NCBI GenBank assembly: GCA_020634575.1
Contig: JACKBM010000031.1
Span: forward strand, 1 to 64,000
Length of the DNA: 64,000 nt
From: Ardenticatenales bacterium
GTDB taxonomy: Bacteria > Chloroflexota > Anaerolineae > Promineifilales > Promineifilaceae
Direction: 5' to 3'
Position 1 is the first letter of the stretch. Each line of letters opens with the position of its first letter. The position numbers and the translations under genes were made by a program. This document shows, in pieces, positions 4,374 to 63,226 of the stretch. A model generated the notes under the pieces. The model saw only the letters and a program-made list of their open reading frames with translations, had not been told where the DNA came from and ran no database searches.

Positions 4374-4566
4374 CAGAAATTCCTCCCTGAGTCCGGCGGC
4401 TGAACCGGCCGGTGCCTCACAGACTTACTATCTGGCGACCACTATAAATGTACTCCGGGCCAGCCTCATCGGGCCATCGCACCTATTTTTGCGGGCAACG
4501 CCCCCTATTTTGACGAATCTGCCGGAAAGTCAGGCCAAGGCCAGTAGCACATGCCACAATCTGCGC

Positions 4567-4578
4567 TATCCTTGAAGC
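4567..4578 (+). promoter_or_regulatory. -10 box six bases before ATG 4579 (leaderless start)
   Basis: TATCCT at 4567-4572 is followed by six bases and then ATG 4579, so transcription would begin at or next to the start codon. The -35 region (4544-4549) is poor. No Shine-Dalgarno sequence is possible in a leaderless transcript and none is seen. Confidence 0.4.
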
Positions 4579-5268
4579 ATGGAACCGCTTCTCTACCTGA
4601 TCGTTGGCTCGTTACTGGCTTACACACCGCTGATCCTGTTTGACATGTTCACCAAACGGCAGCGGCTGGCAGCATTGCGCAAGGCTGCTGAACGGCTGGG
4701 ACTCACCTACACTGCCGATGATCCTGAGCAACTTCCGCTCAAGCTGGCGGATTTTGCCCTGTTCAAGCTGGGGCAGGACGGCAAGGCTGTCAATGTGATG
4801 CGTGGGGATGGTGTTTGGTTGTTTGAATACAGCTACCGGATTCCCGGTCGTTTTCGCCATAACCGGCGCTATCAGACGGTGATTTATTTTCAGCGCGAGG
4901 AAATGGATTTGCCGCAGTTCAGGTTGCAACCGGCCGGTCTGCTACCTGCCGTCATGCGCGAATTAGGCTATCTGGACAAGGAGAAGGCCAAACAGACCCA
5001 GCTCACCCTCCACCCGGACCTGGCCGACCTGTACCAACTCAGCAGCCCACAAGCAGCGCTGATGCCAACGCTCTTCAACCCCGCCCTGGTCGCCAACCTG
5101 GCCGAAAACCCCGGCCCGAGCATCGAAGGGGCGGCACGTGATCTGATTTTTTATTACGATCAGAAGCGATTTGAACCGAAAGAACTTGACGCGTTTTACG
5201 CCAATTCGGCGGCCCAGGCGGCGTTAATCTTCGTCGACGGCTTCCGGCGCGAGACGGCCGCTGGGTAG
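4579..5268 (+). CDS. Membrane-anchored protein of unknown function
   Basis: 229 residues. One hydrophobic segment at the N terminus (residues 3-22) is followed by a basic stretch (KRQRLAALRK) and a soluble alpha/beta domain, so the bulk probably lies in the cytoplasm. The soluble part has an aromatic strand region (VWLFEYSYRIPG, YQTVIYF) that loosely recalls DUF3137-like proteins, but I cannot assign it. The 3' end overlaps the convergent gene at 5224 by 45 bases, which is unusual. The start is ATG 4579, six bases after a -10-like box. Confidence 0.65.
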   Translation: MEPLLYLIVGSLLAYTPLILFDMFTKRQRLAALRKAAERLGLTYTADDPEQLPLKLADFALFKLGQDGKAVNVMRGDGVWLFEYSYRIPGRFRHNRRYQTVIYFQREEMDLPQFRLQPAGLLPAVMRELGYLDKEKAKQTQLTLHPDLADLYQLSSPQAALMPTLFNPALVANLAENPGPSIEGAARDLIFYYDQKRFEPKELDAFYANSAAQAALIFVDGFRRETAAG

Positions 5269-5526
5269 CTTCAGCACGATGGTGCCGTTCAGAGCCACCA
5301 GCACCCCCGCCCAGAACAGCATAAACACGGCCCGATCTTCGTAGTTAATGCGGGTGATGTTCGGGAAGAGGGCAAGAAGGAAACTGCCTGAGGCCGCCAG
5401 CAGACCAGCGACAATCAAGAGCCAGATGACTTCGCCGCGGCGCAGCCAGCGGGGCAAGAAACGGAAGGCCACCAGGGTACCCAGCAGCGTCAGAACACCA
5501 ATTGCGTAGACCAACCAATCCATCAT
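5224..5526 (-). CDS. Small three-TM membrane protein
   Basis: About 100 residues with three hydrophobic segments (WLVYAIGVLTLLGTLVAF; VIWLLIVAGLLAASGSFLLA; FMLFWAGVLVALNGTIVL) and a charged C terminus. The chosen start is the ATG preceded by AGGATTTA; a start 13 codons upstream at 5565 is also open. It overlaps the convergent 4579 gene by 45 bases. It is not recognised as a named family and has no functional motif. Confidence 0.6.
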   Translation of the reverse strand: MMDWLVYAIGVLTLLGTLVAFRFLPRWLRRGEVIWLLIVAGLLAASGSFLLALFPNITRINYEDRAVFMLFWAGVLVALNGTIVLKLPSGRLAPEAVDED

Positions 5527-5596
5527 TAAATCCTGTAATTGGCTGACAATGAATCCTTTCCCCACTTACGACAACAAATGGCGAAAGGGCTAACTG

Positions 5597-7643: not shown

Positions 7644-8600
7644 ATGATTAGACCCAGCCGCCTTCTCGTTCCGCTTGCGCTGCTGCTGCTGTTCCTGCTG
7701 CCGGCCACGCCGGCCTATGCCATCATCGGCCGGCATGATGTGGCCGCAGAATCGTATTTGCAACCGGCCGGTGCCCACCCAGCCGTCTTCGACATCTTCC
7801 CCGGTAACGGCGCCGCCACACTCATCGCGCCCGAATGGGCCGTCACCGCCGCCCATGTGGCCCAGGCGATCCCGCCGGATGGCTCGCATGAAGTGCAAAT
7901 CGGTGCCGGGACGTACCAGGTTGTCCAGGTCGTCACCCATCCGGAGTGGAGCGGCGTTCATTTTCACGATGTGGCCCTGGTTCAGCTCAGCCCGCCAGTC
8001 AGCGCTGTGGCCCCCCTGCCCATTTACCGGTCCGAGGATGAAGTTGGCCAGATCGTCTCGCTGCTGGGTCGCGGTGACTATGGCGACGGCGAAAACGGCG
8101 CTTTGGGGGCAGATGGCCAGCTACGCGCGGCCACCAATCGGGTAGAACGGGAAGAATCTGGTAGCCTCTGGCTCCGCTTCGACGCGCCGGACAATGAACA
8201 TGTGACAGAGTTAGAGGGTGTGGCGGGACCCGGGGACAGCGGCGGGCCGGCTTTACTCGAGAAGGATGGCGAGCTGTTCGTGGTCGGGGTCGCTTCGTTT
8301 AGTCTCAGCCTGGAACAGCCGGCGCCTGGACCGGGCCATTACGGCATCTTTGACACCTATACCAGTCTTGCCAGAGCCCAGGCATGGATCGATGGGGTCC
8401 TGGCCGGCGAATTGGTTGGCGCCCCGGCCGCCGCCAACCTGGCCAGCCCTGCTGCCGCGACGCCCACAGCGGTCCCGGCGCAGGCAGAACCGGCCGGTGC
8501 CCTCAGCCTGAGCTACCCCGCCCTGGTCGCCATCATCCTGGCTGCCCTCGTGATTGGCGCCGTCCTCACCTTCGTTTTAGGCAGAATTCGCCGCGAATGA
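7644..8600 (+). CDS. Trypsin-like serine protease with C-terminal membrane anchor
   Basis: 318 residues. A signal peptide (LLVPLALLLLFLLPATPAYA) is followed by a chymotrypsin-fold protease domain (S1). The triad is visible: His in VTAAHVAQ, Asp in FHDVALVQL, Ser in GPGDSGGPALL. Residues ~255-285 are an Ala/Pro/Thr linker. A final TM helix (LVAIILAALVIGAVLTFVLG) ends in RIRRE, so the enzyme should face outside, anchored by its C terminus. GGAGG lies just before ATG 7644. A strong terminator follows. The substrate is unknown. Confidence 0.9.
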   Translation: MIRPSRLLVPLALLLLFLLPATPAYAIIGRHDVAAESYLQPAGAHPAVFDIFPGNGAATLIAPEWAVTAAHVAQAIPPDGSHEVQIGAGTYQVVQVVTHPEWSGVHFHDVALVQLSPPVSAVAPLPIYRSEDEVGQIVSLLGRGDYGDGENGALGADGQLRAATNRVEREESGSLWLRFDAPDNEHVTELEGVAGPGDSGGPALLEKDGELFVVGVASFSLSLEQPAPGPGHYGIFDTYTSLARAQAWIDGVLAGELVGAPAAANLASPAAATPTAVPAQAEPAGALSLSYPALVAIILAALVIGAVLTFVLGRIRRE

Positions 8601-8630
8601 CGCGAATTGGCGCCAAGGTTCATTTTGCAG

Positions 8631-9313: not shown

Positions 9314-9320
9314 AGGTCAG

Positions 9321-10607
9321 ATGATCACGCGTTTGTGGCAGCGGGGGCAAAGCATCCCCCGAAATATGCGGCTGTTTCTGCTCAATGTGCTGGCTTATGG
9401 CATGGTGATTGACGGCATCCTCTCGGTGCTGCTCAACCTCTATCTACTAAGACTGGGCTACGACACAACCTTTATCGGCACGATCAATTCCATTGGCACC
9501 CTGGTCTTTGCGCTGGTCAGTCTGCCGATCGGCGCCGTACAGCGGTACAGCAGCCGCCAGATGATGCAGTTGGGCCAATTTCTCTCCCTGATTGGCCTCC
9601 TCGGCGTCCCACTGGCGCTTTACGTCAACGAGGGCCAGGCGCTGTTCCTGATTGGTTTCCGCGTCGTGGCCTCAATTGGCCTGTCCACCTACTTCGTCCA
9701 TCAGGTCCCCCTGGTGATGGAGATCACCCGCCCGGCCTGGCACGCCCGCGCCCTCTCGCTGACGATGGCGTTCTTCTCGCTGGCGGCCTTTCTCGGCAGC
9801 TGGATCGGGGGGATGCTGCCCGGCTTCTTCGGCGGTCTGTTGACGCTGCCGCTCACGGACCCACAGCCGTATCAGCTGACCATGTTCACCGCCGCGCTGC
9901 TCCTCATCCCGGCCATGATCGCCATCAGATTACTGCCGGACCGGCCGGTCGGCGAAGAAACGCCCGCCGAAGAAACAAACCACGGCACGCTCGCCGCCGG
10001 TTGGAAACCATTGGCCGGCCTGCTGGCGGTGATCCTGCTGGTGCGCGCCCTGCAATCCGGCGGCATCGGCGTGGTGATGACGTTCACTAACGTCTATCTG
10101 GACGAAGCGCTCATGGTGCCCACAAGCCGGATTGGCCTGATCACGGGCTTCGGCCGGCTGTTGGGTGTGCCGATGTCGCTGACTGTGCCCTGGCTGGTCA
10201 GCCGCTTTGGCAATTTCAAGCTGGTGCACCTGTCGCTGGGGCTGATAGCCTTGCTGATCGTGCCGTTGGCGCTAGTGCCCTACTGGCCCGTCGCCGCCCT
10301 GGCCGTCATTGGCATCAGCAGCATGGGTTCCGTCCGCTACCTTTCCTTCATCGGCTTTACGATGGCGCTTGTCTCCGACAAACAGCGCAGCCTGATCTCT
10401 GGCACCAACGAAATGGCGATTGGCGCCGGTTTTGCCATCTCCTCGTTCATCGGCGGCTACCTGATTGCCTGGCTGGGTTATCGGGAGCTGTTTCTGTTTG
10501 GGTCGGCGCTCACCGTGCTGGGCACCGTCGTTTTTGGTCTCATTTTTTGGCGTCGGTCAGGCCAGACAGCCAGGCCAGCCCCCATTCCACGAGCTCCCAA
10601 ATTATGA
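9321..10607 (+). CDS. MFS transporter
   Basis: 428 residues with about 12 hydrophobic segments and a central cytoplasmic loop rich in Glu (around EETPAEETNH). It starts seven bases after the Lrp-type gene, with an AGAGGTC ribosome site, and ends in an ATGA overlap with the next MFS gene. The family is clear from topology; no substrate motif is recognised. Two consecutive MFS genes behind one regulator suggest linked export or uptake functions. Confidence 0.87.
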   Translation: MITRLWQRGQSIPRNMRLFLLNVLAYGMVIDGILSVLLNLYLLRLGYDTTFIGTINSIGTLVFALVSLPIGAVQRYSSRQMMQLGQFLSLIGLLGVPLALYVNEGQALFLIGFRVVASIGLSTYFVHQVPLVMEITRPAWHARALSLTMAFFSLAAFLGSWIGGMLPGFFGGLLTLPLTDPQPYQLTMFTAALLLIPAMIAIRLLPDRPVGEETPAEETNHGTLAAGWKPLAGLLAVILLVRALQSGGIGVVMTFTNVYLDEALMVPTSRIGLITGFGRLLGVPMSLTVPWLVSRFGNFKLVHLSLGLIALLIVPLALVPYWPVAALAVIGISSMGSVRYLSFIGFTMALVSDKQRSLISGTNEMAIGAGFAISSFIGGYLIAWLGYRELFLFGSALTVLGTVVFGLIFWRRSGQTARPAPIPRAPKL

Positions 10608-11920: not shown

Positions 11921-14164
11921 ATGAGTGCCGCTCACATCGCTGAGCCGACCAACGCGGAAAAGATACGTTTGCTCCCCTGGAGCATTGCGTCTAACGCGGC
12001 CAATACGGTGTTTGTCCATTACACCTTTTTTGGCTCGGCTTTTGTCCTCTTTCTAAATGAGTTGCAGCTGAACAATGCCCAGATCGGTCTACTGCTCTCA
12101 TTTTTTCCCTTCTTTGGTCTTATCGCTATTTTCATCGCACCCCGTGTTGCCCGTTATGGCTACAAGCGGACCTTCCTGACCTTTTTCGGCACCCGGAAGA
12201 TCATCACAGCGCTGCTATTGTTCACGCCCATGCTGGCCCAATGGGGCGGCCCGCAATTAACGCTCTATTTTGTGATGCTGATCGTCATCCTGGTGGCCCT
12301 GTGCCGGGCCGTAGCCGAAACGGCCTGGATTCCCTGGGCCCAGGAATACGTCCCCAACGCCATCCGGGGCAAATACAGCGCGACAAACAGCATTGTTTCC
12401 AACCTGACCGGTGTCATCGCGACCTCAATCGCCGGCGCGATCATCGGCGCCTCGTTGGGGTTGGGACGCTTCATGGTGTTGATCGGCATTGGCGTCATTG
12501 CCGGGCTCATTTCTGTCTGGGCGGCCTCCTTTCGCCCGGGCGGGGCGCCACTGGAGCCGTCCGCGGATGCCTCCCTCTCCCTGGCCGGCCTGCGCAGTTC
12601 CTGGGCCGACCGCAATCTACGTAATTTCCTCATTGGATTTGGCCTGATCACCCTGGCGACCGTCCCGATGGTCTCCTTCATCCCGGTCTTCATGGAAAAT
12701 GAGATTGGCCTCAATTCCGGGGAAATTGTCTGGCTGCAGACGGCCACGTTGATCGGCGGCCTGGCCTCAACTTATCTCTGGGGCTGGGCGTCCGACCGCT
12801 ATGGCGGCAAACCGGTGATGATTACCGGGCTGGTTGCGCGCCTTTTGTTGCCGCTGGGTTGGCTCTGGCTGCCATTGGCCGGTCCGCTCAGCCTGCCAAT
12901 TGCCCTGGGCATCGCCATCCTGCAGGGCGCCACTGACATCGGCTGGGCCCTTGGCTCCTCCCGCTTGCTCTACGTCAGCATCGTGCCCCCGGAAAAGCGG
13001 GTCGAATATACGGCGCTCTACTCGGCCGCAGTGGGTCTGTTTGGCGGCGTCAGCCAGTTGTTGGGCGGCCGGCTACTGGATCTGTTCGGCGGTCTACAGG
13101 GCGAACTTCTTTTCTTCCCCCTGAACCCTCATGTCCCCCTGTTCCTGTTCGGTTTATTTGTGCCGCTCATCAGCCTATTCCTTTTTAGCCGGGTTGATGC
13201 GGATAGCCGCTTCTCATTCAGCGAATTTGCCGGTTTATTCATTCACGGCAATCCGTTTCTGGCCCTGACCACCCTGCCCCGCTACTACTGGGCCAAAGAT
13301 GAGGCCCGGGCCGTGGACATGACCGCCCGGCTGGGCCAATCCCAGAGTCACCTGACCGTCGAAGAGCTGCTGGATGCTCTGGTGGACCCCCGCTTCAATG
13401 TTCGCTTTGAGGCGATCATCGCCATCGCCCGTATGCGACCGGATCCCCGCCTGATCACCGCCCTGCGCAAAATCATGGAAGGGACGGAGCTTTCCCTGAG
13501 CGTGGTCGCTGCCTGGGCGTTGGGCCGCATCGGCGATGAGCATGCGCTCAAGACGTTGCGGGGTGGCCTGGATTCGGACTATAAGTCCATCCGGGCCCAT
13601 GCCGCCCGCGCCCTGGGCGCCCTGGGTGACAAACAGGTCGGCCCGTTACTGCTGGCGCGACTGGGCGAAGAAGAGGACAAGGGGCTACAGATGGCTTACG
13701 CCTCGGCGCTGGGCAATTTGCAGATGCACGAGGCCACCAGTCAGCTCCTCAACATGCTGCAAACGACGGCCAACCCCGGCGCCCGCCTTGAGCTGGCGCT
13801 TTCCCTGGCCCGCATCATCGGCGACGAGCCCAACTTCATCAACCTGCTGCGCCGCTTCCGCAATGACGCCGCTACAACCAGTGCCCAGGAGGTACGCGGT
13901 CTGGCTGGCAAGGTACCGGCCGGTTGGCCCGACGCAGCCACCATAGAGCAAACCCTGCGCCGCAGCAGCACCGCCTTCGCCGAAAACCGGCTGGCCGCTG
14001 GCGCGACCTTGCTGCATGAAGCCCTGATCAAACAGGCCCAAACCCGCGCCGACGGCAACACCCAGCATATTCAGGAGGCCTGTTTGGAACATCTCGTCAG
14101 CTACGACATCGAACACCCGGAGTATTTGCTGCTGCTGCTGCATTCGCTGCGCGCGGGCTGGTAG
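11921..14164 (+). CDS. MFS transporter fused to HEAT-like repeats
   Basis: 747 residues, far longer than a normal MFS protein (400-450). Residues ~15-425 form 12 TM segments of the major facilitator type. Residues ~440-740 are soluble and, in the middle part, built of HEAT/PBS-lyase-like helical pairs (e.g. LVDPRFNVRFEAIIAIARM, VVAAWALGRIGDEHALKTL, ARALGALGDKQVGPLLLARL). AAGGAA precedes ATG 11921. The C-terminal part should lie in the cytoplasm and could bind a partner. The next gene starts six bases after the stop. The substrate is unknown. Confidence 0.88.
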   Translation: MSAAHIAEPTNAEKIRLLPWSIASNAANTVFVHYTFFGSAFVLFLNELQLNNAQIGLLLSFFPFFGLIAIFIAPRVARYGYKRTFLTFFGTRKIITALLLFTPMLAQWGGPQLTLYFVMLIVILVALCRAVAETAWIPWAQEYVPNAIRGKYSATNSIVSNLTGVIATSIAGAIIGASLGLGRFMVLIGIGVIAGLISVWAASFRPGGAPLEPSADASLSLAGLRSSWADRNLRNFLIGFGLITLATVPMVSFIPVFMENEIGLNSGEIVWLQTATLIGGLASTYLWGWASDRYGGKPVMITGLVARLLLPLGWLWLPLAGPLSLPIALGIAILQGATDIGWALGSSRLLYVSIVPPEKRVEYTALYSAAVGLFGGVSQLLGGRLLDLFGGLQGELLFFPLNPHVPLFLFGLFVPLISLFLFSRVDADSRFSFSEFAGLFIHGNPFLALTTLPRYYWAKDEARAVDMTARLGQSQSHLTVEELLDALVDPRFNVRFEAIIAIARMRPDPRLITALRKIMEGTELSLSVVAAWALGRIGDEHALKTLRGGLDSDYKSIRAHAARALGALGDKQVGPLLLARLGEEEDKGLQMAYASALGNLQMHEATSQLLNMLQTTANPGARLELALSLARIIGDEPNFINLLRRFRNDAATTSAQEVRGLAGKVPAGWPDAATIEQTLRRSSTAFAENRLAAGATLLHEALIKQAQTRADGNTQHIQEACLEHLVSYDIEHPEYLLLLLHSLRAGW

Positions 14165-14169: not shown

Positions 14170-15132
14170 ATGACGCTGTTTTCCTTACCGGCCGGTCAGA
14201 AACAGGCCACCTGGGTTCCCCTGGCGCCCCGCAGCGGCGGCGGTCAATGGCAGCTGCCTCTGCTCATCATCCAGGGCGCCCGGCCAGGGCCAACACTGGC
14301 CGTCAGCGCCGGCGTCCATGGCGACGAATACGAAGGGATCGCGGCGATTCGGACCCTTTACGACGGTCTGGCGCCAAACCAGCTCAGCGGCCGCCTGCTC
14401 ATGATCCCGGTCTGCAATGGGCCGGCTTTTGAGGCCGGCACGCGCAATAGTCCGGTGGATGGGCTGAACCTGGCCCGCGTCTTCCCCGGGGACAGCGGCG
14501 GCACGCTCACCCAGCGCATCGCCGCCTGGATGCACCACCATTTCCTGCCCGAAGCTGACTTCTACATCGACCTGCACAGCGGCGGGGTTGCGTATGACAT
14601 CCCGACGTTGATCGGCTATGGCGTGGGGGATGATGCTCTGGGGCAGGCATCTCGGACGGCGGCTGAGGCATTTGGCGCGCCGGTGCTCTGGGGCCATCCG
14701 CTGCCCCATCCACCCGGCCGGACCATCAGCTCGGCAACGGCGCTGGGCATCCCCTCGTTGTACACCGAGGCGCCGGGCGGCGGCTTTGCCCGGCCGGCCG
14801 ATGTGGCCTGTTTTGGGCGGGGCGTCCAGAATGTCATGCGCCATCTGGGCATCTTGCCAGGCGCCATCGAGAAAGCAGCCGTTACCCATGACCTGCTGGG
14901 CAGCGGCGACCTGGACCGGGTGCTGGCGGCACCGGCCGGTGGCTTCTTCCAGCCTGAGGTCAGCTTGCTGGATGAGGTAAAGGCCGGCGACCAGCTGGGC
15001 ACCATCTACGACCTGCTGGGTCAGCCATTGGCCACGCTCCAGGCCGAGCAGAGCGGTATCGTCATCATGCTGCGCCGCTTACAACGGGTACAGGCCGGCG
15101 ACGGGCTGGTGCATCTGACCAACCGCAGGTGA
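14170..15132 (+). CDS. Succinylglutamate desuccinylase/aspartoacylase family zinc hydrolase
   Basis: 320 residues. The zinc site is visible: H and E in AGVHGDEYEG (residues ~48-57) and the third ligand in YIDLHSGG (~136-143). The SPVDGLNLARVFPG segment is typical of the M14/AstE-AspA group. These enzymes cleave N-acyl groups from amino acids or related amides. No partner in the window fixes the substrate. It is probably cotranscribed with the MFS-HEAT gene six bases upstream, so transport and hydrolysis of the same compound is a reasonable guess. Confidence 0.87.
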   Translation: MTLFSLPAGQKQATWVPLAPRSGGGQWQLPLLIIQGARPGPTLAVSAGVHGDEYEGIAAIRTLYDGLAPNQLSGRLLMIPVCNGPAFEAGTRNSPVDGLNLARVFPGDSGGTLTQRIAAWMHHHFLPEADFYIDLHSGGVAYDIPTLIGYGVGDDALGQASRTAAEAFGAPVLWGHPLPHPPGRTISSATALGIPSLYTEAPGGGFARPADVACFGRGVQNVMRHLGILPGAIEKAAVTHDLLGSGDLDRVLAAPAGGFFQPEVSLLDEVKAGDQLGTIYDLLGQPLATLQAEQSGIVIMLRRLQRVQAGDGLVHLTNRR

Positions 15133-15338: not shown

Positions 15339-16466
15339 ATGAACCAGCCGCAGCGCGACCAAACCCAACAGCTACTCCGGGAGCGCGGCCTGAGCCGCGC
15401 TCTGTTTGCCGACCCGGCCAACATCACCTGGCTGACCGGCGTGCCCCTCCCCTGGCGAGCCGGCGCCTTTCTTTACGCCGGCGGGCCACCGCTACTCTGG
15501 TATGAGGCGGGCCAGTTTACCCTGATCCTGATGGCCGGCCACGATGGCGAGGCGGCGGAATTTGCCGCCCAGCCGGGCTGCGCCGTTCAAACTTATGAAG
15601 GGTACGCTTATGAACGGCAACCGGCCGGTGCCCAAAACTTGCAGGCAACATTGGCCGCGCTGATCCGCTCCAGCCGCGGCGGCCCGATTGGCATCGAAAG
15701 CGGCCATTTGCCCGTCGCTTTGCTGGATATCCTCACCAGCCAACAGCCGCCAGACACCATCTTCACCCCCATCGACGGCTGGTTGGCCCCGCTGCGCCTC
15801 ATCCGCACCAACGAAGAGCTGGCCCGGATGCGCGCCAATTTTGCCCTGATCGCCGAGGCCCAGGCCGCTTGCCCCGCCGCGATTCGGCCGGGTAACACGG
15901 AGCTGGCTGTGTGGCATGCGGCGCACACCGCCCTGCAGCAAGCCGCTGGGATGACCCTGCCTCTGGGCAACGACTGCACTGTCGGCCGGCGAATGGGTGG
16001 GCCGCCTCAGCCGGTCGAAATCCTGCCAACGGACTCGTTTATCGTCGACCTCAGCACCATCTGGCGGGGTTACTGGAGTGATAGTTGTGTAACCTATTAC
16101 GCGACGGCGCCATCGCCGCAGCAGGTTGCCATGCATCGGGCCGTGGCTGAGGCGCTGGAGCTGGCTATCTCGCTGGCCAAACCGGGCGCCCGCTGCCGCG
16201 ACATTGACCAGGCCGTGCGCCAACAGCTGCTTGACCAGGGTTACCCAACCTATCCGCACCACACCGGCCACGGTATCGGCGTTATCGGCCACGAGGCGCC
16301 GCGGGTGACGCCGCACAGCGACGAACGGCTGCAGGCGGGCATGGTCATCATGCTGGAACCGGGCATCTATTACCCCGGGGAAACCGGCGTACGCCTGGAA
16401 CATGCTGTGCTGGTCACGGCATCCGGGCCGGAAATCCTGACGCCGTACGATTTGAACATCCCCTGA
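15339..16466 (+). CDS. M24 family metallopeptidase (Xaa-Pro aminopeptidase/dipeptidase-like)
   Basis: 375 residues from ATG 15339. There is an N-terminal creatinase-like domain (residues 1-125) and a C-terminal pita-bread domain. Metal ligands fit the family: Asp in FIVDLSTIW, Asp in YWSDSCV, His in HHTGHGIGV, Glu in MLEPGIYY and Glu in VRLEHAVL. The GHGIG and EPGIY blocks are diagnostic. It removes N-terminal residues next to proline or a related bond; the exact substrate is open. It has its own promoter and no operon partner. Confidence 0.9.
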   Translation: MNQPQRDQTQQLLRERGLSRALFADPANITWLTGVPLPWRAGAFLYAGGPPLLWYEAGQFTLILMAGHDGEAAEFAAQPGCAVQTYEGYAYERQPAGAQNLQATLAALIRSSRGGPIGIESGHLPVALLDILTSQQPPDTIFTPIDGWLAPLRLIRTNEELARMRANFALIAEAQAACPAAIRPGNTELAVWHAAHTALQQAAGMTLPLGNDCTVGRRMGGPPQPVEILPTDSFIVDLSTIWRGYWSDSCVTYYATAPSPQQVAMHRAVAEALELAISLAKPGARCRDIDQAVRQQLLDQGYPTYPHHTGHGIGVIGHEAPRVTPHSDERLQAGMVIMLEPGIYYPGETGVRLEHAVLVTASGPEILTPYDLNIP

Positions 16467-18405: not shown

Positions 18406-19647
18406 ATGAACATGCGGAGCCTAACACGTATTTTTCTTGGGCTGCTGGCTGCCGTCGTCCTGGTGACGGTAGGGCTGGCCGGCGGCCTGATCCTGGGTCG
18501 AACCATGGCCCAACCCTCTTTGCAACTGGAAAGCGGTGCTGACGGCCAGCTGATTGACGAGGCCTGGCAGACCATTCAGGACAACTATGTGGACCAGGCG
18601 GTCCTGACCGACGAGACTCTTACCTACGGCGCCATCGACGGCATCGTACAGGCGCTGGGCGATACGGGCCACAGCCGCTTCCTGACGCCGGCGATGGTTG
18701 CCGCCCAACATGAATACACCTCGGGCGAATTTGAGGGGATCGGCGCCTATGTGGAAAGTCAGGATGGCATCGTGGTGATTGTGTCGCCCATCGATAACTC
18801 ACCGGCGCAGGCGGCCGGCCTGTTGCCCGGCGACATGATCCTGGCGGTGGATGGCGAGGATGTCACCAACATGCCGGTCTCAGAGGTAGTCGGGCGGGTG
18901 TTGGGACCGGCCGGTAGCGAGGTCACCCTCACCATTTTCACACCAGCAACGGAGACAACCCGGGATGTCACCGTCACCCGGGCCAAAATTGAACTGGAAA
19001 ATGTCCGCTGGGCGCAACTACCCGGAACCACACTGGCCCACGTCCGCATCGCCGCCTTCAGCGACGGCGTCAGTGAGGACCTGGTGGCAGCGCTGCAAGA
19101 GATCCAGGCCGCTGGCCTGACTGGCGTCGTCCTGGACCTGCGCAACAACCCGGGCGGCCTGCTGACGGAGGCCGTCGGCGTAACCAGCCAGTTCCTGCCT
19201 GAAGATAGTGTTGTCTTGCAGCGCCAGAATGCCCAGGGCGAGATCAGCCTGGAAACGGCCATTGGCGATGGGGCCGCCCTTACCATCCCGGTCGTCGTGT
19301 TGATCAACCAGGGCAGCGCCAGCGCCAGCGAAATTGTCGCCGGCGCCTTGCAGGACGCTGAGCGGGCGCAGCTTGTCGGTATGACCACCTTTGGCACCGG
19401 CACCGTGCTGCGTGAATTCTCCCTGTCCGACGGCTCGGCCATGCTGCTGGCGACGGAGCTGTGGCTGACACCGGCCGGCCGCGTCATCTGGCACAAAGGG
19501 GTGGAGCCGGACCTGATGGTGGATCTACCGGCCGGTACCGTCCTGCTCAGCCCGGAACGGGAAGCACAGCTCAGCGCCGCCGAGTTGCAGGCCAACCCGG
19601 ATGAACAGCTCCTTCAGGCCATCACCTTACTGGAGAATACGCAATAG
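18406..19647 (+). CDS. S41 (C-terminal processing) peptidase with PDZ domain, catalytic Lys replaced
   Basis: 413 residues. An N-terminal membrane anchor (residues 9-31) is followed by a helical region, a PDZ domain (~105-185) and an S41 core. The nucleophile is S306 in NQGSASASEIVAGAL. In CtpA/Prc enzymes a Lys follows about 25 residues later in a T.GKG motif; here that place reads TTFGTGTV, with Thr 331. The VVLDLRNNPGG block and the WLTP.GR...HKG end are typical of the family. It should act outside the membrane. Either another residue serves as base or activity is altered. Strong ribosome site GAAGGAGA. Confidence 0.88.
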   Translation: MNMRSLTRIFLGLLAAVVLVTVGLAGGLILGRTMAQPSLQLESGADGQLIDEAWQTIQDNYVDQAVLTDETLTYGAIDGIVQALGDTGHSRFLTPAMVAAQHEYTSGEFEGIGAYVESQDGIVVIVSPIDNSPAQAAGLLPGDMILAVDGEDVTNMPVSEVVGRVLGPAGSEVTLTIFTPATETTRDVTVTRAKIELENVRWAQLPGTTLAHVRIAAFSDGVSEDLVAALQEIQAAGLTGVVLDLRNNPGGLLTEAVGVTSQFLPEDSVVLQRQNAQGEISLETAIGDGAALTIPVVVLINQGSASASEIVAGALQDAERAQLVGMTTFGTGTVLREFSLSDGSAMLLATELWLTPAGRVIWHKGVEPDLMVDLPAGTVLLSPEREAQLSAAELQANPDEQLLQAITLLENTQ

Positions 19648-20639: not shown

Positions 20640-20642
20640 GCT

Positions 20643-31798: not shown

Positions 31799-31886
31799 GC
31801 ATCCCATTTGGGTTTTACCGGCCGGTTCACAATCCCGGTTAGGCAGGGGAGCGGCCCAAAGAGGCTGCTCCCCTGTTGCACCCAAC

Positions 31887-48875: not shown

Positions 48876-48970
48876 GGCGACCGGCCGGTTGCCGGTCGCC
48901 CTGCCATCTACCCGGCAGAGTGACGCTCTGCCGGCCGTGTTTCATTCGCTAACGCCCGGACGGGCGCGTT
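48876..48970. repeat. Three successive stem-loops in an intergenic region
   Basis: Stem 1: GGCGACCGG (48876-48884) / CCGGTCGCC (48892-48900), containing an ACCGGCCGGT copy. Stem 2: CCGGCAGAG (48912-48920) / CTCTGCCGG (48926-48934). Stem 3: AACGCCCG (48951-48958) / CGGGCG-c-GTT (48961-48970). They lie after the end of the protoglobin gene. No T runs follow, so they could protect mRNA ends or act as a terminator cluster. Confidence 0.5.
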
Positions 48971-51574: not shown

Positions 51575-51955
51575 TTAGTTCATCTGGATGAGTTGCAGCA
51601 AGTTGCCACAGGTGTCGTCGATGACGGCCATGCTGACCGGACCGGCCGGTGTCAGCGGCTGCACAAAAACGACGCCCTCCGCCTGCAAGCGCGCACACTC
51701 AGCCTCCAGATCGTCGACCATAAACGAGGCCGCCGGGATGCCATCAGCCACCAGCGCCTGCTTATAGGGGCCGACGGCGGGGTGCTCGCTCGGCTCCAGC
51801 AGCAGCTGCACCCCATCGGCCTCATCCACAACCGTCAGCCAGCGGTGCTCACCCATCGGGATGTCCAGCTTCAGCTTAAAACCGAGCTTGTTGGTATAAA
51901 AGTCAAGCGCCTTACTCTGATCGTCGACAAAGACATTGGTAATGTAGATTCTCAT
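51575..51955 (-). CDS. VOC (glyoxalase/bleomycin-resistance) superfamily protein
   Basis: 126 residues, a single VOC protomer: two beta-alpha-beta-beta-beta halves (MRIYITNVFVDDQSKALDFYTNKLGF; then IPAASFMVDDLEAECARL ending in IDDTCGNLLQLIQ). Metal-ligand-type Glu/His cannot be assigned by eye. It overlaps the ArsR-type gene by four bases (ATGA), so it is likely under its control, typical of inducible detoxification modules. Confidence 0.88.
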   Translation of the reverse strand: MRIYITNVFVDDQSKALDFYTNKLGFKLKLDIPMGEHRWLTVVDEADGVQLLLEPSEHPAVGPYKQALVADGIPAASFMVDDLEAECARLQAEGVVFVQPLTPAGPVSMAVIDDTCGNLLQLIQMN

Positions 51956-52477: not shown

Positions 52478-53158
52478 TTAGGCGGGAATCAGGGTGTGCT
52501 GTTCGACGGCGGCGTTCGGGGCGAACAGCTGAACATGGGCCTGGATGCGCCGCAAATGGTGATCAACAGCGTCGCGAGAGACACCGGCCGGTCCATACGC
52601 CACATACAACACGTCCGTTGTCGCCGGCGTAATTGGTGAGCGGTTGTCCTGACCATAGATGATCGAGCAGCAGACGCCGGCCGCATCCCGCATGATCATG
52701 TCACCCGGCGGCAGCAGTTTGTCGCGGCCGTTCATCTGAATCATGCTGTCCGTCTCACCTGAAACATCCATCTCCACCGGTCCTTCGAGTTGGGCCACAT
52801 CGTGGCCGGCAGCCAGGATGAAGGTTTCCACTTCCGCACCAAAGTTGGCGTCTACAAGCGGCGAGACGGCCGGCAAGGGTTTTCCCTTGAGGGCAATTGA
52901 CTCCAGCTGCAGCTGCACATGATAGGTCTTGCCAAAGCGGCGGTAATAATCCTTATAAGCTGCCAGAACCGGCAGCTCCAGGAAATCCGCCCGGGTAAAA
53001 TCGCCATACTGCGTCCGCAGCGCGGTTTCAATGATGCGCTTCTGCGTTTCAAGCGCGGGCGCCGGCTGGCTGTTGTCGATACCAGAGAGCTGCAACAGCC
53101 CGATGGTGCCGCCGGGGTGGGCCTGACGCCAGGCATCGGTTGCGGTGATGGTCAGCAT
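52478..53158 (-). CDS. B3/B4 tRNA-binding domain protein
   Basis: 226 residues from ATG 53158 behind AGGAGGAAACAA; 22 more codons are open upstream. The fold is that of the B3/B4 editing-like domain of phenylalanyl-tRNA synthetase beta chain: YKDYYRRFGKTYHVQLQLE, LPAVSPLVDANFGAEVETFILAAGHDVA and a C-terminal Gly-rich strand region. Stand-alone members exist in many bacteria; their role is uncertain and may involve tRNA or amino-acid quality control. Confidence 0.82.
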   Translation of the reverse strand: MLTITATDAWRQAHPGGTIGLLQLSGIDNSQPAPALETQKRIIETALRTQYGDFTRADFLELPVLAAYKDYYRRFGKTYHVQLQLESIALKGKPLPAVSPLVDANFGAEVETFILAAGHDVAQLEGPVEMDVSGETDSMIQMNGRDKLLPPGDMIMRDAAGVCCSIIYGQDNRSPITPATTDVLYVAYGPAGVSRDAVDHHLRRIQAHVQLFAPNAAVEQHTLIPA

Positions 53159-53241: not shown

Positions 53242-53805
53242 TCAGTCGGTTGGCGACAGTTCAGCCACGATAGCCTGGATGCGCTTCACTTTGGTGGCCG
53301 GCCGTTTGGCGCTGTCCAGCCAATAGAGCAGCTGCTTTTTGCGCGATGCCGGTAGCGCCGCGTAGGCGGCCAGGGCGCCGGGTTGTTCGCTGAGGGCCGT
53401 CTCAAGTTCTGGCGGGATTCGATCGACCTGTTCGCGACGCAGGGCAGCGTCCCATTGGCCGTTGGCTCTGGCCAGGTCGATCTGGGTTTGACCGGCCGGT
53501 GCCATCAACCCTGCCGCCAGCAGCCGTTCGACCCGACCAATGTTACGGGCCGACCAGGGGCTGTCCGCCTGGCGCGGCGAGAAGCGCAGGGCATACCAAT
53601 TCTCATCAATGGGCTGCAACAGCCCATCGATCCAGCCAAAACACAGCGCTTCCTCAACCGCCTCATCCAGGCTGATCCCAGGCCCTCGCGCCCGCTGGCG
53701 CCGAATTTTGAGCCAGGCCTCGCTGGACGCCGCGTGGTTCTCATGCAACCAGCGGCGCCATTCGTCCCGGCTAGCACAGGACAGGGTGTCAGGCACATCA
53801 GCCAT
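53242..53805 (-). CDS. YdeI/OmpD-associated family protein
   Basis: 187 residues. The YdeI pattern is clear: DEWRRWLHENH, then EAWLKIRRQ, EEALCFGWIDGLLQPID, ALRFSPRQADSPWSARNIGRVERL, and a C-terminal helical domain with LPASRKKQLLYWLDSAKRPATKVKRI. The family is loosely tied to stress and bacteriocin protection; the biochemical role is unknown. It overlaps the DinB gene by eight bases, so the two are cotranscribed. Confidence 0.88.
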   Translation of the reverse strand: MADVPDTLSCASRDEWRRWLHENHAASSEAWLKIRRQRARGPGISLDEAVEEALCFGWIDGLLQPIDENWYALRFSPRQADSPWSARNIGRVERLLAAGLMAPAGQTQIDLARANGQWDAALRREQVDRIPPELETALSEQPGALAAYAALPASRKKQLLYWLDSAKRPATKVKRIQAIVAELSPTD

Positions 53806-55891: not shown

Positions 55892-56018
55892 AAGACACAC
55901 TCCTTATGCAAAACACCAAAACGGCCGGTTGCCTGGTCAGGGGGGAACCGGCCGGTCGTGAAAAAGTATAAGGAGTTGGCAGCGGCCTCGCGATGGCCTT
56001 GCAGTCCTGTTATCGCGC

Positions 56019-58119: not shown

Positions 58120-58779
58120 TCAAATCTCCACGCCTTGCACATAAGCAAGCCGCTCCAACTCACGCGGGATGCTGTCCTGGCGCCCGGCGGCCAGCTTGCG
58201 GGCAACCCGGATGGCGATGGTCAGCGACATGGCCGGCACCAGGGCGACCCGTTCGGCCGGGCTGAGAGGGCGGATGGTTTCGTAGCTGGTCAGCAACGCT
58301 CTTAGCCAGTCAAGTGAGCCACAATCCACGGCCGCGTCGGCCAGATCCAGGATAGCGTGACCCAGGCCGGCGTATTCCCAATCGATCAACGTCAGGGCAC
58401 CGTCGGGCCCTTCGATGATATTGCCACGCCAGAGGTCCGCGTGGATCACGGTAACCGGGCAGGGCGTGACCAGACGGGCATTGGCCAGCGCGGCCTGTAG
58501 CTCCGGGAAAGGCGCCAGCCAGGCTGTGACCTCATCGACCACATGGTTGAGGGGATGGTACCAGGAGTTGGGGGTACCGGCCGGTACAGCAACACCATGC
58601 AGCTGCCCCAGCAATACACCCAACGCCGCCGCCGTCTCCGCCCGCCAGCGCAGCCGTTCGCCGGGCACAAACACCCCCGCCCCCACCGCCGTCATCCCGA
58701 GCGCCTTTAACCAACTCATACGCCTCCCGTGACGAAGCGAGGGACCTCTACGCCCGTCATCCCGAGCGCCGGTTCCCAA
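58120..58779 (-). pseudogene. APH-fold kinase, N-lobe missing, fused to repeat DNA
   Basis: 219 codons. The C-lobe is intact: VIHADLWRGNII (catalytic loop) and LIDWEYAGLGHAILDLAD (metal loop). Instead of the ~90-residue N-lobe that carries the ATP-binding Lys, the first ~40 codons read through the CATCCCGAGCG...GAGGGACCTC repeat at 58690 onward. ATG 58719 with GGGAGG only three bases upstream is itself repeat-derived. Likely a kinase gene truncated by repeat insertion or recombination. A shortened active protein is less likely. Confidence 0.6.
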
Positions 58780-60578: not shown

Positions 60579-60718
60579 TTTGCTCTACCTCCTGCTGGGA
60601 ATCAGGCAGCGAGCCGATAAGTCTGGGGATACTCGCCGCCGCTGCAACGATACCCGAACCGGTCTCAGGTGCAAAAAAGCTGGCGCTTTAACTCAAAGGG
60701 TGGCTTTGCATAGCACGA

Positions 60719-61216
60719 TCAGGCAGCGATTTCTAGCAACGCCCCATGCAGCCGGCCAAAATACCAGCCATCGATCCGGGGCGCCGCTGCCCCCAGGGCC
60801 GTGAGCATACTTTTGATCTGCTCCCGATGTTCGGTGGCATGATTAATTGCCTGCACCAGCACCACCCAGGGGGCGATCGTGTACCCATCAAATTGGAAGT
60901 TCCCGCTCAGCGCCTCGCTCGGCGCCGTTCGGGCCAGATCATTCAACCCCTCGCCAGTGAGACGCAAGGCTGCGGCCAGTTCAGCCAAAGGCGGAATTGC
61001 CGGCCATTTGTAACGATGCTCGATGCCAAGCAACTGCGACAGGTAACTCTCCTGGGCATCCAGCAGGTGCCAGAGGGTAAAGCGAATACTGCCCTTGGTC
61101 GCCGAATCAGGCTCATGATCCAGTTGGGCGTCGCTCAGGTCGGCGCAGGCTGCCATGATTTGCATGTTGGCCCAATGGTTGTGTTCAAACAGTTTGAGAA
61201 GGATATTTTCAGGCAT
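60719..61216 (-). CDS. DinB family protein
   Basis: 165 residues from ATG 61216 behind GTGAGGAAAAAA; 32 codons upstream are open but unsupported. DinB fold with LFEHNHWANMQIM (first His), FTLWHLLDAQESYLSQL (second) and QAINHATEHREQIKSMLTAL (HxxxH), so the three-His metal site appears complete. Members are thiol-dependent transferases of varied role. It stands alone. Confidence 0.82.
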   Translation of the reverse strand: MPENILLKLFEHNHWANMQIMAACADLSDAQLDHEPDSATKGSIRFTLWHLLDAQESYLSQLLGIEHRYKWPAIPPLAELAAALRLTGEGLNDLARTAPSEALSGNFQFDGYTIAPWVVLVQAINHATEHREQIKSMLTALGAAAPRIDGWYFGRLHGALLEIAA

Positions 61217-61324
61217 GCATTTTTTCCTCACGATCTGGGGAGACAGTGTGACCAAGGATGACCTGTGCGTCAAACCTGAATCCAGAACAAGACCAATTCT
61301 AGATGCTGCCAAACCAGCAGTTCC

Positions 61325-63226
61325 CTAAGGTGCCCAGTCGGGATCAATTTCCTGGGCCAGGGTATAGGTCAGCCGTATCGTTTGGCCGCTGGCCAGTTCC
61401 AGAACATACAGCTCCGCATTGCCATCGACCTCCGAGACATAGAGAAGGTGTTGGCCATCGGGGGACCAGCTGGGGGCGGAATAACTTTGCACCAGATCGA
61501 GGATTGGCTGGCGGCTACCCATTGTGGCGATGAGTTCGTCCACCTGGGCGATAAAGAGGGACCGGCCGGAAATAAACGCCAGCTGCTGGCTATTAGCCGA
61601 TAAGGCAGGCAACGAGCCATTGCCAAGGGGAATTCGCTCCGTACGGTCGGTCGTTCTCAGGAACAGCCTGTAAGCCGGGTAGCGGCCAGAAGCATAGATA
61701 ATGCGCTCGCTGTCCAGCCAGACCGGCTGCAAATCTTGAATCGAATCAGTGGTATCTGTCAGCTGTGTGATCAAGCCATCAGTGAGATTCAGGATATGGA
61801 TTTCACTGTCATTTTCGGGGAAATCTGCATTGTGGGTATCCACATAAGCGATCGCCAGGCCATCCGGTGACCAGGCGGGCGACTCTTTGGGGGATAGGGA
61901 GTAGGTGAGGCGCTCAACAGCCGAGCCATCAGCATTCATGAGATAAACTTCATCATGGCCGGCGCGGTCAGAAACGAAGGCAATACGCTGGCCATCGGGC
62001 GACCAGGCCGGCTGATAATCATTGCCAGGATAATTCGTCAGACGGGTCAGGCCAGTACCATCGGCATACATGGTGTAGATCTCGAAGTTGCCATCGCGAT
62101 CTGTGGCAAAGACGAGGCGGCCCTGTAACGCCGCCATACCGGGTTGCTCCGGGGCAACCAATGGTTCGGGCGTGGGCGTCTGGCTTAGCGGGGGCACGGT
62201 CAGCCCATCACAGGTGAAAGGCAGCTCAAATTGCTGCCGCGTGGCGCCCCAGAACTGACTGGGTGTCTCATGGGGCAGGATGGGACGCAGGATAACATAA
62301 TAGGCCTGGTCACCCTCGCGAAATAGCCGGGACGACATCTTGAGGTCAAACAACGCCATCAGCGGCTCAATGTATTCCGGCGCGATCACGACGTGAGAAC
62401 TCACCGGATCACTCTTGAGTTCTGCCAAAGCAGGCAACTCGGTTGGCCAGGCCTGCAGGGAGCTCGCATCCTCATCCGTCAAGGGTTCGACCCAGAGCAC
62501 CAGGTGCTCAGGCATATAATTGGTCAATGCCACCGGCGGCTCGTAGTTCTGGAGAAATTGAAACCCGGCCTCAACCTCCGCGACCAGATAATCGGTGTAA
62601 GGTCCATAGATCGATATGCTATGATTAAATGGACCATTTACTTGAATCAGATAGCTTGATGCGCCATCACTGTATTCAGTGGTCTCATCAAACTCATATA
62701 TCATTTCTGGTGGTTCAAAAATGCCGGTTGTCTGCAATGTTCGCAAAATGTTACACATCTCGGCTACAGGCAATTGGCCTGTCCAGAGAGTGAAGCCGTC
62801 CTGCCAGCTACCACGACTGACGATTACCTGACCGTCGGCGTAAACCGCCAGGGCTGGCGTACCGCTACCCCGATAGAGATCGCTGGTTGTACCACCATCC
62901 CCCCCAAGCGCCCCAAAACGCAGCAAGAGTGGCTTGGTGGTGTAAAAAGCGAACGGCGTGACGGTGGGGAATGGCGCTGTTGTGATATACGGGATTGGCG
63001 TCAGGGAGGGAACGGGCGTAGCGGTAGGTGGCAATGGCGCAGTGGGTGTTGAAACCAGTTGAGCGGTAGCTATGGATGTCGGGAGCTGTGTAGCGATCGG
63101 TTCCAGACCGGCCGGTGTGCTCGTATGAGCGATGGTTGCCTCTAGAGTCGGTGTAGCGGGACCCTGACATGCCGCCAGGCAAAGAAGAACGATGAGGAAA
63201 AGTAGCGCGTGTTGTTGTTTAACCAT
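61325..63226 (-). CDS. Lipoprotein with TolB-like (PD40) propeller repeats
   Basis: 633 residues. A lipobox (LIVLLCLAAC) is followed by a Thr/Pro/Ala linker (~20-95), a long unassigned domain (~100-350), then five or so TolB/PD40 blades (YPGNDYQPAWSPDGQRIAFVSDRAG; SLSPKESPAWSPDGLAIAYVD; SYSAPSWSPDGQHLLYVSEVDG), each with the SPDG turn. Probably displayed on the outer face and involved in protein interaction or polysaccharide-linked functions. No partner gene is visible. Confidence 0.85.
   Translation of the reverse strand: MVKQQHALLFLIVLLCLAACQGPATPTLEATIAHTSTPAGLEPIATQLPTSIATAQLVSTPTAPLPPTATPVPSLTPIPYITTAPFPTVTPFAFYTTKPLLLRFGALGGDGGTTSDLYRGSGTPALAVYADGQVIVSRGSWQDGFTLWTGQLPVAEMCNILRTLQTTGIFEPPEMIYEFDETTEYSDGASSYLIQVNGPFNHSISIYGPYTDYLVAEVEAGFQFLQNYEPPVALTNYMPEHLVLWVEPLTDEDASSLQAWPTELPALAELKSDPVSSHVVIAPEYIEPLMALFDLKMSSRLFREGDQAYYVILRPILPHETPSQFWGATRQQFELPFTCDGLTVPPLSQTPTPEPLVAPEQPGMAALQGRLVFATDRDGNFEIYTMYADGTGLTRLTNYPGNDYQPAWSPDGQRIAFVSDRAGHDEVYLMNADGSAVERLTYSLSPKESPAWSPDGLAIAYVDTHNADFPENDSEIHILNLTDGLITQLTDTTDSIQDLQPVWLDSERIIYASGRYPAYRLFLRTTDRTERIPLGNGSLPALSANSQQLAFISGRSLFIAQVDELIATMGSRQPILDLVQSYSAPSWSPDGQHLLYVSEVDGNAELYVLELASGQTIRLTYTLAQEIDPDWAP

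Follow-up and report, generated by a model that had tools for sequence, protein, structure and literature searches.

Introduction

The highly iterated palindrome HIP1 of cyanobacteria is found in coding and spacer DNA alike. Chi words are lineage-specific, frequent in an organism's own DNA and sometimes present in phages, and the known ones are directional; DUS, the uptake words of the Neisseriaceae, are not known to be palindromes. The words described here resemble Chi as lineage-specific short words frequent in their own DNA, but differ from the directional Chi in being palindromes.

Like HIP1 (GCGATCGC) and Elhai's alternate HIPs (GGCGCC, rCCGGy, GCsGC, GGGATCCC and TCGATCGA), as the cited portions of PMC4390886 describe them, they are short and GC-rich, stand at about 500-2,500 per Mb, and show outer-biased one-base deviations, extensions past a core and sporadic replacement by other palindromes. 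Unlike the cyanobacterial HIPs, they belong to another phylum and have another sequence, and a single core carries at least three flank dialects across one family tree. The likeness to Neisseriaceae DUS dialects lies in a core with lineage variants, thousands of copies and phylogeny-consistent dialects (part of PMC3630211), whereas the Chloroflexota word is palindromic and dense on some mobile elements. Neither CCGGCCGG, GGCCGGCC nor ACCGGCCGGT occurs in the main text of PMC4390886. Among the literature matches listed there was no report of a Chloroflexota HIP, and queries for overrepresented palindromes in Chloroflexi and for Promineifil palindromes returned no match, in searches that left most subscription papers outside.

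Results

The window, that is, the whole 64-kb stretch of DNA analysed here, carries 32 exact copies of ACCGGCCGGT, about one per 2 kb or 500 per Mb. The first-pass annotation had recognised the iteration but counted 30 copies at 4404..63116; the span is in fact 1804-63116, with the copies at 1804 and 2606 lying outside the earlier range.

Exact copies of ACCGGCCGGT in the window
Copy 1, 1804..1813, strand., exact match, before the earlier range
Copy 2, 2606..2615, strand., exact match, before the earlier range
Copy 3, 4404..4413, strand., exact match
Copy 4, 4929..4938, strand., exact match
Copy 5, 7763..7772, strand., exact match
Copy 6, 8489..8498, strand., exact match
Copy 7, 9940..9949, strand., exact match
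Copy 8, 13915..13924, strand., exact match
Copy 9, 14187..14196, strand., exact match
Copy 10, 14931..14940, strand., exact match
Copy 11, 15620..15629, strand., exact match
Copy 12, 18906..18915, strand., exact match
Copy 13, 19527..19536, strand., exact match
Copy 14, 24825..24834, strand., exact match, within a COX1-like 1096-aa ORF
Copy 15, 28377..28386, strand., exact match, within a FixO-cytochrome c ORF
Copy 16, 31817..31826, strand., exact match
Copy 17, 32547..32556, strand., exact match
Copy 18, 33312..33321, strand., exact match
Copy 19, 35248..35257, strand., exact match
Copy 20, 38922..38931, strand., exact match
Copy 21, 41984..41993, strand., exact match
Copy 22, 42567..42576, strand., exact match
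Copy 23, 45821..45830, strand., exact match
Copy 24, 47625..47634, strand., exact match
Copy 25, 47948..47957, strand., exact match
Copy 26, 48880..48889, strand., exact match
Copy 27, 51641..51650, strand., exact match
Copy 28, 52583..52592, strand., exact match
Copy 29, 53491..53500, strand., exact match
Copy 30, 55947..55956, strand., exact match
Copy 31, 58576..58585, strand., exact match
Copy 32, 63107..63116, strand., exact match

In 100 dinucleotide shuffles of the window the mean was 0.12 copies and the largest count 1, and Markov models trained on the window minus the motif, at orders 0 to 6, predicted 0.1 to 1.0 copies. On these figures chance or composition was rejected as the source of the 32. 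The comparison with 8-mers and 9-mers that had been proposed as a check gave, when run within the window, an estimate of 29.1, near the observed 32, but this test is circular because the window's 8-mers and 9-mers are mostly fragments of ACCGGCCGGT. Within the window the palindrome is a HIP in the wide sense (hundreds to thousands per Mb, far above a shorter-word model); the cyanobacterial HIP1 sequence GCGATCGC itself occurs twice, and in sequence the motif is not HIP1.

By mechanical ORF calls, 28 copies lie within ORFs, three outside and one across an ORF edge, and densities in coding and spacer DNA are alike, as first described, in the window (0.49 vs 0.42 per kb) and for the HIPs of two relatives (1.97 vs 1.71 per kb in G007; 1.60 vs 1.57 in G028). 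The Pro-Ala-Gly reading was also borne out, xPAG being read in 19 of the 28 coding copies. Inspection of 12 bases on each side of the 32 copies revealed no common sequence, and the commonest 12-mers in the window include at most nine copies, so that a dispersed repeat element, with likeness beyond the motif, was rejected. The suggested spreading selfish repeat does not fit these dissimilar flanks, nor the orthologous sites that stay where they are in relatives. Spacing in the window is slightly more regular than random (CV 0.70, P ~0.025), with a smallest gap of 272 bp (P ~0.011), and gaps below 50 bp are rarer than random in G028 (19 vs 51) and G007 (48 vs 75); over-dispersed 5-kb counts in G007 (variance/mean 1.71) speak against strict even spacing. 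The commonest one-base variants of ACCGGCCGGT in the window have the outermost base changed (TCCGGCCGGT, 7 vs 0.4 expected; ACCGGCCGGA, 5 vs 0.4). The 10-mer can also be read as two overlapping CCGG sites.

The closest relative that we found is an Anaerolineae MAG of the Chloroflexota (L001/G001), whose COX1 is 87% identical to that of the window. No universal marker gene was found in the window, and its host is for this reason inferred from the COX1 match rather than placed; FtsH was not decisive, being 44-55% identical to the family copies. G001 holds three copies of ACCGGCCGGT, 11,512 of ACGGCCGT and 99 of the reversed word. Its family comprises 52 genomes, 32 of them within a class sample of 396; more than 1,000 copies of ACGGCCGT were found in 22 of these 32, of which 19 have a density of about 1,000-2,100 per Mb. 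The maximum among the 364 sampled genomes outside the family was 430, in counts covering ACGGCCGT and ACCGGCCGGT only among the dialect words. Within the sampled class, ACGGCCGT at the rich level is thus confined to one family.

Across the family the core CGGCCG is iterated and its outer bases are lineage-specific: A..T in at least 25 genomes, T..A in G009 and G028, G..C in G045 or, in some lineages, none, set beside AC..GT in the window. CGGCCG exceeds GCCGGC more than twofold in 38 of the 52 genomes; this control hexamer is scarce in many family genomes, yet is the commonest hexamer of the window. In 420 kb of G007 the A..T form numbers 819 against 9.4 from an order-3 model (1,950 per Mb), and the whole genome holds 14,867 copies of ACGGCCGT, a word that includes adenine. 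Counts elsewhere are 673 vs 13.3 expected for TCGGCCGA in 420 kb of G028, and 75 vs 2.1 for GCGGCCGC in 43.6 kb of G045. Of the 48 CGGCCG in a 29-kb stretch of G009, 40 carry T..A flanks. In G028 the sister form ACGGCCGT is rare (2 copies, where 14.2 would be expected once the HIP is removed), and TCGGCCGA stands opposite ACGGCCGT at only 2 of 45 ungapped sites, so that sites of different dialects are seldom orthologous; conversion of dialects in place is rare (2/45 and 2/32 ungapped sites) and was set aside. In the rpoB tree the HIP-poor G024 branches from within the A..T genomes. With relatives that carry a genome-wide palindrome on the same CGGCCG core, the label HIP1-like given in the first pass fits as an analogy.

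It is likely that ACCGGCCGGT belongs to this CGGCCG dialect system. The alternative is an independent HIP of another lineage, which shares the core with the dialects by chance. Since FtsH (over matches of at least 400 residues) is only 44-55% identical to the family copies, the window may belong elsewhere than in this family, in which case its 10-mer might be an independent palindrome. Moreover, the window has little more of the CGGCCG hexamer than its shorter words predict (148 vs 135). Among 416 genomes counted, no relative has the window's 10-mer iterated, the highest ACCGGCCGGT count being 149 (G050), and none of the genomes counted showed an intermediate form. However, by COX1 the nearest relative belongs to the family, and its motif is built on the same six-base core; the other three symmetric outer pairs already occur in the family. 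We regard an independent origin as unlikely.

The proposed comparison of homologues in close relatives was carried out on the relatives' ACGGCCGT and gave strong retention: it was kept at orthologous positions in 626 of 704 comparisons, vs 4,076 of 8,047 for same-composition words, at 81-92% DNA identity. In rpoB the figures were 486/661 vs 2,304/14,487 and 150/187 vs 744/4,331, and CGGCCG was retained in G049, G051, G052 and G053 at 58/102 vs 26/135. These figures come from rpoB and from a single region compared among five genomes, at 10-25 kb per pair; the comparisons have sites in common and cannot be taken as independent. Fourfold (silent third) positions inside ACGGCCGT agreed in 291 of 296 cases, and the CGT codon was kept in 61 of 64 cases inside the HIP vs 25 of 90 outside. 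For the relatives, this silent-site conservation contradicts the earlier view that coding sequence tolerates the motif rather than needs it. Lost sites lay nearer a neighbour (median 101 vs 198 bp), but with 7 of 54 lost and P 0.12 an effect of nearby sites on loss was dropped. Collectively, the relatives show genome-wide abundance, equal coding and spacer density, and strong retention of orthologous sites, silent positions included.

The same high retention would come from a repair process that restores sites. Biased mutation or repair might, with no selection on the sites, create and restore the palindrome in whatever DNA is resident, and the equal coding and spacer densities suit a process acting on all DNA, as does the presence of sites on some mobile elements. 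Nevertheless, inner one-base variants, the expected substrate of such a process, are not specially depleted, close pairs are fewer than random, and the sister form is scarce in G028. A drive without function seems rather improbable to us.

The leading published idea on HIPs ties them to methyltransferases (PMC4390886, in the portions cited), and Elhai's proposal for cyanobacteria has an orphan cytosine methyltransferase marking the palindrome and methylation-guided mismatch repair converting near-sites. The methyltransferase search suggested in the first pass was run in the relatives' draft genomes with two profiles, PF00145 and, among the adenine-methyltransferase families, PF01555 alone; PF00145 was matched in 24 of the 52 family genomes and PF01555, over cut-off, in 41. 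A..T genomes show a 2.2-2.5-fold excess of outer-base variants, as for HIP1, but G028 shows none (1.02). However, PF00145 (m5C-methyltransferase) goes unmatched in 10 of the 22 genomes rich in ACGGCCGT, G053 matches neither profile, and G007 has two weak PF01555 matches (best E 4.6e-4) and none to PF00145; for these two families, a site-competent enzyme is not a constant feature of the rich genomes. Retention between G007 and its relatives (0.875-0.898) is close to that among the relatives themselves (0.880-0.926), which have 13-27 PF01555 matches. Adenine is absent from GCGGCCGC and CGGCCG, and the HIP-rich G001, G003, G011, G012, G020 and G033, drafts that may be incomplete, gave no match to MutS domain I. 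Depletion of inner one-base variants was dropped as a sign of conversion because G034 and a HIP-negative 64 kb pool are similarly depleted, and an excess of CpG deamination at the second base was dropped as a sign of m5C, G034 having an excess too (1.54). Among 40 window proteins scanned with Pfam there was no DNA methyltransferase. On the two families searched, the methylation or restriction origin put forward in the first pass lacks support in the relatives, and we consider a methylation-driven HIP quite unlikely. In having no or weak cytosine-methyltransferase family matches the rich Chloroflexota genomes differ from most cyanobacterial HIP carriers, but enzyme absence is not wholly new, since Elhai reports some HIP1-rich genomes without a CGATCG methyltransferase (same portions of PMC4390886).

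If the palindrome were a DNA uptake signal, competence machinery would prefer it and uptake bias would accumulate it, with dialects like those of Neisseriaceae DUS. DUS dialects likewise combine a common core with lineage variants, at thousands of copies (part of PMC3630211). ComEC (PF03772) was found in 47 of 52 family genomes, but it is equally present in the HIP-poor G016, G017, G023 and G024. Moreover, DUS are not known to be palindromic. On certain plasmid- or phage-like contigs, ACGGCCGT is as dense as in the host or denser, with 69 copies in 20.3 kb of L258 plus L313 and 47 copies in 13.2 kb of L295; the sample is biased, since these contigs were chosen for close pairs. In Neisseria, by contrast, an unusual distribution of DUS is what marks out such elements (part of PMC7371117). 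An uptake signal is, in our judgement, very doubtful. Of viral contigs with two close ACCGGCCGGT, 19 were found and none was enriched (2-4 copies each). The HIP-free gaps of G007 gave mixed signs and were dropped as foreign islands: of ten proteins scanned, seven belong to ordinary families and three had no match, one GmrSD-type restriction protein was found, and several gaps are lower in G+C.

Discussion

The interpretation given in the first-pass annotation is supported in part. We propose, with a probability of about 55%, that ACCGGCCGGT is the local dialect of a HIP system in an Anaerolineae (Chloroflexota) family, probably common to the window's lineage. The best reading is a HIP with dialects, maintained by selection or drive, whose sites are recognised by a putative sequence-specific protein and not by cytosine methylation.

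Such a system would be built on the constant hexamer CGGCCG, with symmetric outer bases that differ by lineage (A..T, T..A, G..C, AC..GT), and its sites may be bound by a dimeric sequence-specific protein. The outer-base contacts of this protein could drift between lineages, and each lineage would therefore build its own site set; the window's 10-mer would be part of the same system. The role of the reader is the least certain step: it may serve recombination, repair or chromosome upkeep, with sites that would act as a Chi-like mark of own DNA readable in both directions. This is suggested by their retention everywhere at sub-kilobase spacing and by their presence on some resident mobile elements.

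More tentatively, and at somewhat below even odds, we propose that this Chloroflexota family keeps a dense palindromic signal without cytosine methylation, in the dialects ACGGCCGT, TCGGCCGA, GCGGCCGC and ACCGGCCGGT, whose putative protein reader either discriminates between own and foreign DNA or directs recombination or chromosome upkeep, and that resident mobile elements must carry the same mark. The reader gene would be expected in HIP-rich genomes, missing or changed in the HIP-poor G024 and G023, with residues that vary with dialect. Within the group, the dialects may also be of use in linking plasmids and phages to their hosts. A dense and conserved dialect HIP in a second phylum, with rich genomes in which the expected enzyme families are missing or barely matched, would offer an independent comparative test of HIP function.

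The iterated palindrome in the window

The window carries 32 copies of the 10-mer ACCGGCCGGT, in which the core CGGCCG has the outer bases AC..GT; they span 1804 to 63116. The first-pass annotation had described the 10-mer as highly iterated, which holds, with 30 copies starting at 4404, a count that misses the copies at 1804 and 2606. Its estimate of less than one copy by chance was borne out, with a mean of 0.12 in dinucleotide shuffles and 0.1 to 1.0 from Markov models (orders 0 to 6) fitted to the window after the motif was cut out. It had also proposed a count near the 8-mer and 9-mer expectation as refutation. When this was run on the window, the maximal-order model (the window's own 9-mers) predicted 29.1 copies against 32; the test is circular because the fitted 9-mers are made by the motif itself. 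As had been noted, coding and spacer DNA both carry ACCGGCCGGT, at equal density by mechanical ORF calls, and it is frequently read as Pro-Ala-Gly, with xPAG in 19 of 28 coding copies. Its flanks differ from copy to copy, and the two commonest one-base variants alter the outermost base.

Gene content and kinship of the window

Genes of the window are of ordinary chromosomal types, judging from 40 scanned proteins. Searches for tRNAs and Rfam families gave nothing at the gathering score. The features concerned here are:

23486-31114, oxidase cluster encoding COX1 (503 aa), a FixO-cytochrome c fusion (509 aa) and a COX1-like protein (1096 aa)
865-3018, - strand, CHAT protease domain with effector-associated domain EAD7

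The second is perhaps a conflict-system effector. Genes similar to those of the oxidase cluster were seen in Anaerolineae, Actinobacteria and Meiothermus loci. In L017, from Meiothermus granaticius, CTCGAG appears 71 times over 21.5 kb where an order-3 model predicts 29.8, possibly another iterated palindrome.

One scan of genome contigs with the window's COX1 protein returned 21 loci. The best, L001, belongs to an uncultured Anaerolineae MAG (genome G001) and is 87% identical; the second, from a Chloroflexota MAG, is 74% identical. L001 also encodes a FixO-cytochrome c and a large COX1-like protein, 69% and 65% identical to those of the window's neighbouring genes. The window's FtsH shows only 44-55% identity to copies in L001's family of 52 genomes (matches of at least 400 residues), so the window either belongs to that family only distantly or falls outside it.

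A sister motif in the relatives

ACCGGCCGGT is absent from the 21 kb of L001 and occurs 3 times in the 7.3 Mb of G001. ACGGCCGT, an 8-mer that has CGGCCG in common with it, is present in 28 copies in L001 and 11,512 in G001, against 99 for the reversed word. Copies of ACGGCCGT were counted across a sample of 396 genomes of G001's class, of which 32 belong to the family and 364 do not. More than 1,000 copies (1,189 to 14,867) were found in 22 of the 32 family genomes sampled, at about 1,000-2,100 per Mb in 19 of these and at lower density in G010, G049 and G053. The highest count in the 364 genomes outside the family was 430, ACGGCCGT being the one dialect word, among ACGGCCGT, TCGGCCGA and GCGGCCGC, counted there. 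No relative carried ACCGGCCGGT at near the window's density, the maxima being 149 copies among the 52 family genomes and 126 among the 396 class genomes.

The core CGGCCG exceeded its reversed word GCCGGC more than twofold in 38 of 52 family genomes and one- to twofold in 10, a ratio inflated by the low GCCGGC counts in many of them; it fell below GCCGGC in G016, G017, G023 and G024. In G023 the core is scarce (447 against 7,315 GCCGGC), though abundant in most of the family. GCCGGC numbers 51 against 13,814 CGGCCG in G045 and 132 against 21,019 in G010; in these genomes and others, one GC palindrome is avoided beside another in excess.

Dialects of the outer bases

Dialects were sampled in contig 1 of 51 family genomes and in L001 (1.6 to 21 kb each, five only N). 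The A..T word ACGGCCGT was the top 8-mer in 21 contig-1 samples and within the top three in 24, and the T..A word TCGGCCGA was top in G009 and G028. Together with whole-genome counts, these samples place the A..T form in at least 25 of the 52 genomes. Further samples showed that the G..C word GCGGCCGC makes up 75 of 87 CGGCCG in G045, and that the core is enriched with mixed flanks in G010, G049, G050, G051 and G053 and more weakly in G034-G036. Sister forms are scarce in G028 (contig 1, 1-420000), where ACGGCCGT occurs 2 times against 14.2 expected, GCGGCCGC 4 against 21.0, and CCGGCCGG, another symmetric CGGCCG form, 12 against 29.8. Among 46 CGGCCG in G014 (samples L037, L226, L375 and L151), A..T flanks number 13 and A..A and T..T 9 each; an asymmetric dialect is possible there.

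In a midpoint-rooted rpoB tree of 46 genomes (47 matched, G042 as a fragment only; support values not inspected), genomes with at least 1,000 ACGGCCGT per Mb form one large group, within which lies G024, poor in the highly iterated palindrome (HIP). G028 and G009 group with the mixed-flank G010, and G045 with G049 and G051-G053.

Sites are maintained between relatives

One region was compared in 8 of the 10 pairings of G007, G006, G004, G008 and G005, with 10-25 kb of alignment and 81-92% DNA identity for each. The orthologous position still had an intact ACGGCCGT in 626 of 704 comparisons, against 4,076 of 8,047 for other 8-mers of the same composition, 117,046 of 270,573 for all other 8-mers and 88 of 239 for CGGCCG with other flanks; the comparisons are not independent, because they were counted in both directions and share sites. 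More distant pairs retained sites nearly as often as close ones: 0.875 for 81% identity, 0.902 and 0.926 for 92%. At fourfold-degenerate third positions within 54 aligned G007 sites, 291 of 296 agreed with four relatives; outside sites, the same codons agreed in 269 of 412 (ACG), 810 of 1054 (GCC), 567 of 751 (GGC) and 25 of 90 (CGT).

In rpoB, with pairs below 72% identity excluded, the 8-mer was kept in 486 of 661 cases (15 genomes, 104 pairs; permuted words, 2,304 of 14,487) and 150 of 187 (9 genomes, 28 pairs; permuted words, 744 of 4,331). For the hexamer, the figures were 58 of 102 (against 26 of 135) among G049, G051, G052 and G053, and 190 of 382 (against 954 of 2,584) in the G034 group; for the 8-mer they were 2 of 11 (against 88 of 652) and 0 of 5. 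The A..T group thus keeps the 8-mer, the G049 group the hexamer. Both G007 and G028 have fewer gaps below 50 bp between sites than random placement would give. When G028 was aligned with A..T genomes (23 gene pairs), ungapped TCGGCCGA stood opposite ACGGCCGT in 2 of 45 cases and opposite another CGGCCG in 5, and ungapped ACGGCCGT opposite TCGGCCGA in 2 of 32. Sites of a new dialect lie mostly at new places.

The HIP behaves as a binding site under constraint would: its palindromic core is fixed, its outer bases are symmetric and vary by lineage, and silent bases are kept. Its likeliest reader would be a dimeric sequence-specific protein. Repair that restores the sites is a possible alternative.

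METHYLTRANSFERASES and methyltransferases

Elhai 2015 (PMC4390886) describes alternate HIPs in some cyanobacteria, each with at least one fitting methyltransferase, and also some genomes rich in the cyanobacterial HIP1 without a CGATCG enzyme; the HIP-methyltransferase rule therefore has exceptions. In the family, PF00145 was found in 24 of 52 genomes and gave no hit in 10 of the 22 rich in ACGGCCGT (G001, G003, G007, G011, G013, G019, G022, G032, G033 and G053), and PF01555 lay above cut-off in 41 of 52, the completeness of the genomes searched being unstated. That methylation drives the HIP seems unlikely to us. Such exceptions, known already from HIP1-rich genomes, would accommodate it, as would the adenine present in ACGGCCGT (absent from GCGGCCGC and CGGCCG), PF01555 being the one adenine family searched. 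Against it, the ACGGCCGT-rich G053 matched neither family, and G007 (7.7 Mb), which gave no PF00145 match and two to PF01555 (best E 4.6e-4), holds 14,867 copies of ACGGCCGT, with site retention no poorer than that of its enzyme-rich relatives. Keeping the HIP in the relatives probably needs no cytosine methylation by known families.

Mobile elements and the role of the motif

ComEC occurs in 47 of 52 family genomes, including HIP-poor ones. MutS domain I was found in 42 of 52, and not in 6 of the 22 rich genomes (G001, G003, G011, G012, G020 and G033), which may reflect incompleteness. IMG/VR was scanned for ACGGCCGT copies lying close together, which gave at least 120 stretches; among the 80 matches listed, a few were rich, with 69 copies in 20.3 kb (L258 and L313), 47 in 13.2 kb (L295) and 44 in 14.7 kb (L246). 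L258 encodes a P22-type antirepressor, ParA-like and FtsK-like proteins, RadC and a lytic transglycosylase. On L246 lie genes for an IstB-like ATPase and for a protein weakly matching a replication protein, and on L295 those for a protein resembling PAPS reductase and for an N6 DNA methylase domain. These contigs look plasmid- or phage-like. Since the pattern search itself selected rich contigs, it follows that such elements exist, not that all bear the motif.

We infer that the HIP may mark own DNA for its reader, either as a Chi-like signal acting in both directions in recombination or repair or as a mark of another kind. Such a role accounts better than uptake does for the sub-kilobase spacing and for the motif's occurrence on some resident mobile elements (on DNA uptake sequences, PMC3630211, PMC7371117 and PMC1939737). 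The weakest link is the window's tie to the relatives, which draws on the CGGCCG core that they have in common and on kinship in COX1. HIPs are of a known kind; this variant occurs in another phylum, comes in dialects and, in some rich genomes, goes without the expected enzymes. The literature searched, with partial coverage, yielded no earlier report of a Chloroflexota HIP. The presence of ACGGCCGT in L258, L313, L295 and L246 could help to assign such contigs to Anaerolineae hosts.
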